From NCBI GenBank assembly GCA_023511295.1, contig JAIMBT010000012.1:1-64000 (forward strand): 64,000 nucleotides of DNA. The letters are read 5' to 3'. Numbering within the stretch: the stretch's first letter is position 1; each line of letters opens with the position of its first letter. The stretch is from Alicyclobacillus sp. Lineage in GTDB: Bacteria; Bacillota; Bacilli; Alicyclobacillales; Alicyclobacillaceae. Shown here piece after piece: positions 13,189 through 19,442 of this stretch. The notes under the pieces were generated by a model. That model was not told the DNA's origin and did no database searches. It saw only the letters and a list, made by a program, of their open reading frames with translations. A program made the position numbers and the translations under genes.

Positions 13189-14244
13189 GACAAAAGAGTT
13201 CTATTCGTTTTAGGAACGATATCTGGGAGGGGCGGTATCGAGTCTGCGCTAAAGCAGTGGTTTCAGGCTTTGGAGCAGAACGGGTACACACCAACTGTCG
13301 TCCTACTAGACAGACCCCATTACACTGATTGGTTAGATGGATTCGAGCATAAAATATTGGATATTAAGGTTGGGAAAAACGCTATTCAGAAATTGTTGGC
13401 ACTGAGAAAGTATGAAGTCGGTCTTTTGAGGGTAATTCGAACATTCAATCCGGATTGGGTTATCGCAACGACACCATTCACTGTGTTTTTATGTCAACAT
13501 TGTCGAAAGCGCAGATTGAACTTTAGGCTAGCTTCCTGGATACACTGGCCGATGGATCGTTTTCCGCGGAAGAAATTGTTGGCCTATGCGGATATGCACT
13601 TTGCAATCGGGCGTGGTATCCGCGACGACCTAGTACGTCATTTCCCGGATAAACCCGTCACGTTAATGCCGAATTTCGTAAAGGAGGCGCCTGATGCCCG
13701 AATTGGTACTGACGACGGCCGATATGGCATGACATTTATCGGCCGCTTGGAACAAGAAAAACGTGTGGACGTAGCAATTCGCTCGCTCCTGCGTGCCGAA
13801 CATTGGCACCTCCGGATTATAGGGGATGGGTCACTTGGATGTAGGCTAAGAGAGTTGGCAAGCCAACTAGGGGTAGAAGACAGAGTGTCGTTTATGGGGT
13901 GGCAGGATGATCCGTGGGAATCGTGGGCTGGACAAGCCTTGGTACTGACGTCGGATTATGAGGCCATGCCATTCACAATTCTCGAAGCTCTTTCCCGTGG
14001 TATCCCTGTTCTCGCTACGGATTGTGATTTTGGCCCCCGTGAATTGATTGTTCCTGGAGCAAATGGATGGCTAGTTCCTGTAGGTTCCTATGATGCGCTT
14101 TCTTCAGTCCTGATTGACATTGAGTTAGGGAGAAAGAGGTTGCCTCCGCCGGAAGACATACGAGCTTCAATAAAAGAATATTCCGCGTCATTTGTAGTGC
14201 CAAAATTACTGGAAGTACTTGAATCAAGTATTACTCAAGTTTGA
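13189..14244 (+). CDS. Glycosyltransferase family 4, 3' end modified by an IS
   Basis: GT-B transferase with RVLFVLGTISGRGGIESALK at the N-terminus, donor-domain start YGMTFIGRLEQEKRVDVAIR, and VLTSDYEAMPFTILEALSRG carrying the EX7E pair. Then comes IPVLATDCDFGPRELIVPGA. GTG 13189 follows GGGGAG by a good distance; TTG 13147 and GTG 13153 and 13180 are alternatives. The last codons (TQV and the stop) lie inside the terminal repeat of the IS1634-type element starting at 14234. The original tail was therefore replaced, although the catalytic core is intact. It is the last gene of the cassette. Confidence 0.83.
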   Translation, partial: DKRVLFVLGTISGRGGIESALKQWFQALEQNGYTPTVVLLDRPHYTDWLDGFEHKILDIKVGKNAIQKLLALRKYEVGLLRVIRTFNPDWVIATTPFTVFLCQHCRKRRLNFRLASWIHWPMDRFPRKKLLAYADMHFAIGRGIRDDLVRHFPDKPVTLMPNFVKEAPDARIGTDDGRYGMTFIGRLEQEKRVDVAIRSLLRAEHWHLRIIGDGSLGCRLRELASQLGVEDRVSFMGWQDDPWESWAGQALVLTSDYEAMPFTILEALSRGIPVLATDCDFGPRELIVPGANGWLVPVGSYDALSSVLIDIELGRKRLPPPEDIRASIKEYSASFVVPKLLEVLESSITQV

Positions 14245-14578
14245 CAGTTGAGTCATCCGCCGACCCTCGACCGCGCTACGGCGCGGTTTTTCCGTGGGTA
14301 AGTCATGTTTTGGTTCGAAAATGTAGGTCAAACAGTGTTCGAACTGTGTATAACGTTTTTGTTGATAATAAAGTGTTTTTAGTGGATTGTTGTGGGTAAT
14401 ATTATGAACGGTGGTGAACCTTGTGTTCGCTCAAATTGTATCCACAAAACGCCCAGATGGTCGCACCTACAGGTACATGCATATTGTTGAGTCCTATCGC
14501 GAGGGTAAACAAGTAAAAAAGCGTCGGATTGCCAGTCTTGGCAATGTCGATAGCTACTCCGAGGATCAAGTCCAAAAT
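14234..14578 (+). mobile_element. IS1634-type element, left-end fragment
   Basis: The segment starts with the terminal repeat CTCAAGTTTGACAG and is nearly identical to 19913-20250, including the leader and the first about 45 codons of the transposase. It breaks off inside the transposase near 14562-14578, where an IS256-type end begins. The matching right end lies at 19344-19442. Flanking bases GTATTA (left) and CTTTAA (right) do not match, so there is no target duplication for this pair. Confidence 0.85.
14263..14292 (+). terminator. Hairpin with T-run in the IS left end
   Basis: ACCGCGC-TACG-GCGCGGT followed by TTTTCC forms a short GC-rich hairpin with a T-run, repeated in the second copy of the element at about 19950-19975. 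It would stop transcription entering the transposase gene. Here it serves as the terminator of the polysaccharide cassette. Confidence 0.6.
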
Positions 14579-15130
14579 GCTGTGTAAAATCCCCTCTTTA
14601 GAGTGTTTCATAGAATGTTCACAATCAGCTCATCGGCCGATGTGCGCTACTTTCTTGTCTGCCAGGGATTTCTCTTGATCCTTGCGCCATTTCCAGTATT
14701 CCTCCATGTTCAGGTAGCATCGACCTGTCGTCCAGGTCTCGTCAATCTCCATTAGCAAGGCTCCCACCAGCCGTGTCACAGACTCACGGTTCGGGAAGAT
14801 GCGTATAACCCGTTCTCGGCGCCGGATCTCTTCGTTCAGCCGCTCCACGCCGTTGGTCGTTCGTAATCGGCGCCTATAACGGTCAGGCAGAGCCAGAACC
14901 GCCGTGGCATCGTCGAATCCGTCCTCAAGCACCTGTACAGCCTTTGGGGCCCGCTCGGCGTACTCCCCGACAAACTTGTCTTTGAGCAGTCGAGCCGTGT
15001 GGATATCAGGAGCATCCAGGATGGCTCGTACACGCTTGTAGACATCCTCATGAAGTGATTTCGGAGTTGCATCCAGCAGATTGCGTATAAAGCGCCTGAC
15101 ACCTCTGCCAGGTGAGCGTCAAATATTTCA
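14577..15130 (-). pseudogene. IS256-family transposase, C-terminal fragment
   Basis: Minus-strand reading gives the C-terminal third of an IS256-family transposase: RFIRNLLDATPKSLHEDVYK, RRRLRTTNGVERLNEEIRRR and RVIRIFPNRESVTRLVGALL. A frameshift, about two bases missing after WQRCQ near 15095, separates the first residues from the rest. The outer end near 14577 (GCTGTGTAAAATCCCC) looks like an IS256 terminal repeat. The N-terminal half is lost at the IS66 junction. Confidence 0.75.
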
Positions 15131-15196
15131 CACCTAGCGTGGGCCCGTCTTGTGGGAGATGATCCTCCCAGAATCGAATTGACGGGAGGAGTTACC

Positions 15197-17727: not shown

Positions 17728-19293
17728 GTGTGCGTCCGAGTAATCCTCGGTTTTTCCAAAAGGTAATAAAAGGATCAATGTCGAAGTCTCCTGTAGCTCA
17801 CCTTTGGAGGTTTCGAGATGACCAAGAAGTTTCGTCCCTACGATCCGAACCAGATCATGCTGTTGCCACCTTCTCTGGACGAATGGCTGCCTGAGGATCA
17901 CCTCGTTCACTTCATCGACGACATCGTCGACAGTTTAGATATCTCAGCAATTCTGTCCGTGTACGAGCGAGAGCTCAGAGGCTTTCCGCCGTACCATCCG
18001 GCCATGTTGCTCAAGGTGCTCATCTACGCGTACTCCACGGGCACTTACTCGTCGCGGAAGATCGCGAAGGCTTGTCAAGAGAATGTGGCATATCGGATGC
18101 TGTCAGCCAACCAATTCCCTGACTTTCGCACCATCAGTGACTTTCGCAAACGTCACCTGGCAGCATTCGAGAACCTGTTCCTTCAGGTGCTGCACATCTG
18201 CTCTGAGTCCGGTATGGTCAAGCTTGGACATATCGCACTGGACGGGACCAAGATCAAAGCAAACGCCTCCAAGCATAAGGCCATGAGCTACGGGCGGATG
18301 AAGCAAGACAGCGAGAGGCTGCGCAAGGAAATCCGTGACCTTCTGCGTCAGGTGGAGCATGTGGACGAGCGCGAAGACCGTCGGTACGGTTACACCCGTG
18401 GTGACGAGTTGCCTGCTGAGCTTACTCGGCGGGAGACCCGCCTGAAGAAGATCCAGGAGGTGATGGCCACTCTCGAACAACGTGCCAAGGAACAAGCGGA
18501 ACAAGAGTCAAAGGACAACAAGGATGACCCGGATGGTAATGGTTCTGGCGGCAAGCGGCGTGGGCGTCCACGTAAGCAACCAAAGGATGTGCCTGCCGAC
18601 AAGGCGCAGATGAACTTCACAGACCCAGAGTCCAGAATCATGAAAACTGCGAATGGCTTCATCCAGGGCTATAATGTTCAGTCAGTCGTCGATGAAGCGT
18701 ACCAAATCATCGTTGCAACCAAGGTCACGAACAGCCCAACGGATGCCGGGCATCTTCGAGACATGATGCAGATGGTCGAAGAGAACATTGGCAAGAAACC
18801 CAAGCGGCTTTCCTGTGATGCCGGCTATTTCAAACAGGATGACATCACCTGGCTGGAATCAAAATGCATCGACCCATACATTGCAACCGGACGACAGCCA
18901 CACAACGCCATGCCAATCTCGGTCAGAGGTCGGATACCGAGTCACTACGGCGTCAAGGAGCGAATGGCTCGAAAGCTGAAGACGAAGAAGGGACATGCCA
19001 TCTACGCCAGACGAAAGGTCATCGTTGAACCGCCGCACGGTCAAATCAAGCATTGCCGAAAGTTCGATCACTTCTCCCTGAGAGGCCTCGCCAAGGTTGA
19101 GGGCGAATGGTCGTTAGTAGCCATGTGCCACAACCTGCTGAAGTTGTTCCGATACGGAACGCCGAAGTGGGCTACGGTGTGAACCAGGCACCCAAGACAA
19201 GCTTCGACGGACCTGCTGGTGTCAAAGAACAATAATCCAATGCTTCAGCCTTCATATCGACTGGAAGAACCTAATCGATACTCGGACACACAC
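17728..19293 (+). mobile_element. IS1182-like element, complete
   Basis: A 1566-bp unit with imperfect inverted ends, GTGTGCGTCCGAGTA on the left and the reverse complement of TACTCGGACACACAC on the right. It is flanked on both sides by CTAG (17724-17727 and 19294-19297), consistent with a 4-bp palindromic target duplication. It contains one intact transposase gene. It landed inside istB of an IS21 fragment and is one of the younger layers of the nest. Confidence 0.8.
17818..19182 (+). CDS. IS1182-family transposase (IS5 superfamily)
   Basis: A 454-residue DDE transposase. It starts [20 protein letters not shown] and [18 protein letters not shown], with the DUF772 N-terminal domain including [20 protein letters not shown]. 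The catalytic domain has [20 protein letters not shown] (first Asp), [20 protein letters not shown] (second Asp), and [20 protein letters not shown] (final Glu). GGAGG precedes the ATG by eight bases. Length and motifs are intact, so the element is probably functional. Confidence 0.92.
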
Positions 19294-19343
19294 CTAGCTC
19301 TGCATTTTTACGCTGCGTTTTTCTGTACTTTTATTATGCGGTA

Positions 19344-19442
19344 TACACTCTCAAGCCCCGGCTAGCTTGGGGCTTTTTGTGCTGTAGGGCAAAATCCCCC
19401 CCTACAATCCCTTGTGGGGCCATAGGCGCTGTCAAAGATGAG
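19344..19442 (+). mobile_element. IS1634-type element, right-end fragment
   Basis: This segment is nearly identical to 21903-21999, the right end of the complete IS1634-type copy. It includes a hairpin terminator (AAGCCCC ... TTGGGGCTTTTT) and the terminal repeat CTGTCAAAGATGAG at 19429-19442. With 14234-14578 it brackets the whole IS nest, as if the interior of one IS1634-type copy had been replaced, or two copies had recombined. Confidence 0.85.

Follow-up and report, generated by a model that had tools for sequence, protein, structure and literature searches.

The block at positions 14234–19442 of the window, which comprises the first 64 kb of contig C5 (117,814 bp) in a draft genome of 42 contigs and 3.43 Mb, is an ordinary mosaic of insertion sequence (IS) remains. 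Its layers are real, but they do not fill a single IS1634 element with nested elements. The most probable account is stepwise, with separate nests joined at an IS66 and at an IS1182 element and with the block as a whole not acting as a mobile unit. With the nests probably joined at these two places, the origin of the two IS1634 ends from one element is unproven.

Layers of the block

Layer boundaries were set by comparison with stretches of related genomes, and most of them fall within a few bases of the switch from the match of one element to that of the next. Element family names are based on NCBIfam and Pfam models. The block opens with the left end of an IS1634-family element (14234–14563, + strand), consisting of an inverted repeat (CTCAAGTTTGACAG) and the first part of the transposase gene, which is cut by a first IS256 element, IS256-A (14564–15111, − strand). 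What remains of the latter is the C-terminal part of its transposase (model positions 217–337 of 338) together with a terminal repeat that starts with GATCAAGTCC. Next is an IS66 element (15112–16362, + strand) retaining both terminal repeats (GTGAGCGTCAAAT and GTGAACGTCAAAT). The family models recognised TnpA and TnpB but no full TnpC, the third gene being shortened by an internal deletion of 1286 bp relative to the copy in relative G011. Having lost this much of its transposase gene, the IS66 would depend on a complete copy for any movement. IS256-B (16363–16884, − strand) corresponds to the middle of a different IS256 transposase (model positions 56–229 of 338) and continues at the end of another contig, C27.

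The right end and istB gene of an IS21 element, IS21-a (16885–17727, − strand), terminate in the IS1182 target CTAG (17724–17727), and the istA half of this element likewise lies at the end of C27. The IS1182 itself (17728–19293, + strand) has an uninterrupted transposase frame of 454 amino acids (17818–19182), assigned to the family by model NF033551 (395 bits, cut-off 270), with CTAG at 17724–17727 and again at 19294–19297. To its right are a 54-bp left tip of a second IS21-family element, IS21-X (19294–19347, − strand), starting with a CTAG that is internal to IS21-X in relatives, and the right end of an IS1634-family element (19345–19442, + strand) with a terminator-like hairpin and an inverted repeat. 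Our preliminary description had listed IS256, IS66, IS21 and IS1182 pieces between the IS1634 ends. All of these are present, but the IS256 pieces belong to two elements, as do those of IS21, and the IS66 carries the 1286-bp deletion.

Further IS256-like pieces occur in this genome on contigs C29 (83–86%) and C13 (71%). Another insertion inside an insertion was observed at the start of contig C24 (L034, positions 1–764), where the last 77 bases of an IS1634 give way to the N-terminal portion of an IS256-type transposase (Transposase_mut, 1–223 of 379); its left half was looked for in the assembly and not found.

Changes of host at IS66 and IS1182

The two IS256 pieces have different closest relatives. 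The IS256 element of G036 shares 87% protein identity with IS256-A and 42% with IS256-B, and that of G010 shares 91% with IS256-B and 35% with IS256-A. Aligned to one IS256 element, the two pieces also overlap by 33 bases (11 codons). Together these results rule out a single IS256 split by the IS66. IS66-family elements duplicate 8 bp of target, and the 8-base flanks of this copy (TCTGCCAG and GTTTTTTG) are unlike each other and form no duplication. As the IS256 pieces come from different elements and the flanks differ, a simple insertion of the IS66 into one IS256 does not account for the arrangement. Apart from a right-end piece on C27, this genome yielded no further IS66 of similar DNA, and no contig end attached at the IS66 in a comparison of 77-base overlaps. 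A 258-base piece of IS66 on an Alicyclobacillus plasmid lacks the deletion at that point.

A similar change of host occurs across the IS1182, which has IS21-a on its left, IS21-X on its right and CTAG on each side. CTAG also flanks the four full IS1182 copies examined in relatives (three in G006, one in G013). As the two sides in the window belong to different hosts, the CTAG pair is no proof of a simple insertion. Relatives G035 and G036 have an uninterrupted IS21 site with one CTAG, the left side of which is found in the window and the right side in C27. Relative G031 has an uninterrupted IS21-X tip including its CTAG (55 bases, 100% identical). This tip adjoins a 475-aa frame matching the IS21 transposase model NF033546 (249 bits, cut-off 160), and IS21-X is named IS21-type for this reason; a 149-aa fragment from another relative gave no Pfam match. 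The 220 bases next to the tip were not found in the assembly, and a search for the IS21-X transposase matched solely the IstA of IS21-a itself, at 25%.

Read inward, C27 opens with the closing 162 bases of an IS1182, its CTAG included, followed by the istA half of IS21-a (a 409-aa frame), 65 bases of IS256-B, approximately 84 bases of an IS66 right end and a LacI-type regulator gene. C27 thus carries the missing half of the window's IS21-a, placed behind the right end of a further IS1182. The first 77 bases of this end are identical to positions 19137–19213 of the window (+ strand), which form a branch point of the assembly. C24 is the other contig to attach inside the window by an exact 77 bases, its start coinciding with 21923–21999, the end of a complete IS1634 copy. 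In total, 39 of 84 contig ends had an exact 77-base overlap with another contig end or the window; the comparison covered the terminal 1.4–1.5 kb of each contig and the 64-kb window, and the remaining 45 ends had no exact partner there. We infer that these overlaps are the mark of a graph assembly with k = 77. The smallest contig is 4947 bp long, hence short contigs between repeats may have been dropped.

These observations suggest an order of events. IS21-a would have inserted into IS256-B, and an IS1182 into IS21-a at the CTAG where istA and istB meet; for both steps the two sides are seen, one in the window and one on C27. Three further insertions are each seen from one side: an IS1634 transposase gene would have received IS256-A, the 3′ end of an IS1634 would have received IS21-X, and IS21-X, at a different CTAG, an IS1182. 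Two separate nests would then have been joined, both at IS66 and at IS1182, when element copies recombined homologously with one another, although the IS1182 join could alternatively be a wrong path in the draft assembly. Recombination between two copies had been proposed in the preliminary description; it is the best biological reading, but it is now placed at IS66 and IS1182 and not only between IS1634 copies. Several observations count against the stepwise mosaic. The contig is unbroken across the IS1182, and the second left end that a simple two-copy IS1182 repeat should leave, unless a short contig was dropped, did not turn up; the recombination partner of the IS66 is seen only in part, and the duplication around IS21-a is imperfect (GGCT/CGCT).

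Given the overlap with C27 and its competing continuation, the right-hand bracket of the block either arose when one IS1182 copy recombined with another or reflects an erroneous path in the assembly, and these are two branches of the mosaic reading at the IS1182 join. Real homologous recombination between the IS1182 in IS21-a and the IS1182 in IS21-X has a probability not far short of even. The chromosome would have been rearranged, or be polymorphic in the culture, with the window junction as one product. For each of the ancestral IS1182 sites there are relatives in which the site is uninterrupted, and the same kind of switch is seen at IS66, where no contig end attaches; however, the partner product, in which the other half of IS21-X would adjoin an IS1182, is absent from the assembly.

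An assembly error at this join is also a serious possibility, with a probability somewhat below even. The real left nest would then run through the IS1182 into C27, the IS21-X tip and the IS1634 right end would come from elsewhere, and the two IS1634 ends would bracket nothing. In its favour, C27 completes the interrupted IS21, with a CTAG on either side, and has 77 bases identical to the window; the assembly also lacks the remainder of IS21-X, which would follow from the loss of a short contig lying between repeats. Against this, contig C5 is continuous across the 1.57-kb IS1182, the assembly yielded no second left end of an IS1182, and the IS1182 end on C27 departs from the window copy at 3 of 161 positions, which shows that the copies are not the same in this part. 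The window's route across the IS1182 could thus be correct, erroneous or one of two forms that both exist; its continuity favours the route, and the IS21 restored on C27 counts against it.

It is rather unlikely that the sequenced culture held both chromosome forms, one continuing from IS1182 into the IS21-X tip and IS1634 end and the other into C27. The two would interchange by recombination between IS1182 copies, an event masked by the invariant palindromic CTAG. Where the target is such an invariant palindrome, a perfect-looking CTAG pair should not be taken as proof of a simple insertion.

The IS1634 ends and their flanks

The complete IS1634 copy to the right of the block (19913–21999, + strand) encodes a 599-aa transposase confirmed as IS1634 family by model NF033559 (365 bits, cut-off 100), and TTTAAC on each side of it constitutes a 6-bp target duplication. 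Both ends in the block are near-identical to this copy, as the preliminary description had stated. The left end aligned to 19913–20247 with 321 matches, 8 substitutions and 7 gap columns, and the right end (19345–19442) to 21903–21999 with 96 matches, 1 substitution and 1 gap column. An IS1634 copy in a relative (L026) is likewise flanked by a 6-bp duplication, CACAAA. The family table in PMC2266710 gives target duplications of 5–6 bp, and the same source records long duplications of 8–514 bp for two IS1634-family members. By these entries the complete copy resembles the family in its transposase and in its 6-bp duplication, which falls within the 5–6 bp range, but the block differs in having two ends only and no duplication, neither short nor long.

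The outer flanks of the block, GTATTA on the left and CTTTAA on the right, form no 5–6 bp target duplication around the pair of IS1634 ends, which bears out what had been described at the outset. A long duplication of the kind known for two family members was looked for in the flanks and is absent. No word of at least 8 bases is shared between the 300 bp to the left and the 470 bp to the right of the block. In 200 letter shuffles of these flanks the longest shared word was 7 bases in 32 and at least 8 in 168, hence the real flanks share less than most shuffles do. CTTGAG adjoins the end of the IS1634 copy on C24, and neither it nor GTATTA or CTTTAA matched the flank of any other IS1634 end examined.

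The block had been taken for two ends of one IS1634 element. In this reading a single copy would have received successive insertions and then lost its interior by deletion, which we consider improbable. In its favour, the two ends resemble the complete copy to a similar degree, and the reading frames on the two sides of the block both point towards it. However, there is no outer duplication, though the complete copy and the L026 copy both show 6 bp, pieces of the inner elements lie on C27, and the right bracket hangs on an IS1182 join with which C27 competes.

Some observations concern the neighbouring genes. The stop codon of the glycosyltransferase gene at 13147–14244 is located within the IS1634 left repeat, and the five best-scoring glycosyltransferase matches in relatives end at residues 353–358 of 365, hence little of the gene seems to have been lost. 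On inspection of the open reading frame list by eye, the complete IS1634 copy with its TTTAAC duplication appears to lie inside a small frame on the − strand (19499–22173), which has a lipoprotein-like start near 22173 and continues below 19912.

Mobility, related genomes and target preference

The conceivable composite unit of the preliminary description, which would be bounded by the IS1634 ends and mobilised in trans by the neighbouring transposase, has next to no probability: both inverted repeats are kept and an uninterrupted IS1634 transposase frame lies 470 bp away in the complete copy, but there is no flanking duplication, no passenger gene was seen in the block, and no similar block was found among the matches listed from 40 other family genomes (right junctions) or 60 relatives (whole block). 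In general terms, the block resembles a composite transposon in having two related element ends on either side, and differs from one in these same respects, with no copy found elsewhere. It resembles nested ISs joined by recombination between copies in its insertions into insertions, truncated hosts and duplication-free junctions, differing in the specific set of elements and in having the missing halves on another contig. In a draft genome, a pair of IS ends around a block should be called a composite element only once the joins that run through repeats have been verified.

For the comparisons with relatives, a 301-base stretch over the right junctions was compared with 41 family genomes including this one, the other 40 all belonging to other genera. 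Matches were detected in 23 of the 41, and among those listed outside this genome none crossed either junction by more than about 5 bases. The whole block was compared with 61 genomes (60 relatives and this one), four candidates per genome being scored; 50 of the 61 had matches, and among those listed outside this genome none spanned two layers by more than a few bases. The same nested order in other genomes, which had been put forward as a check, was thus not encountered among the matches listed from the 60 relatives. In the best-scoring relative match, identity was 34% for the glycosyltransferase and 58% for the gene on the right of the block, and gene order in relatives was judged unsuitable for checking the IS1182 join. 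Among 940 plasmid records with a match, none had one place covering 80% of the block, and the portions of the literature covered by a narrow search make no mention of such a block.

Such nests point to sites at which the organism's chromosome could be rearranged by IS copies. The pattern fits a neutral build-up of insertions inside insertions as well as a hot spot. Enrichment of the CTAG target in insertion sequences was not supported: the IS DNA of the window contains 6 CTAG in 7.3 kb (8.4 expected), two of them the IS1182 flanks, and the rest of the window 42 in 56.7 kb (55.0 expected). CTAG is rare in the genome more widely, with 35 occurrences against 88.0 expected in 81 contig-end loci (119 kb). 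GATC is also low at contig ends, with 357 occurrences against 653 expected.
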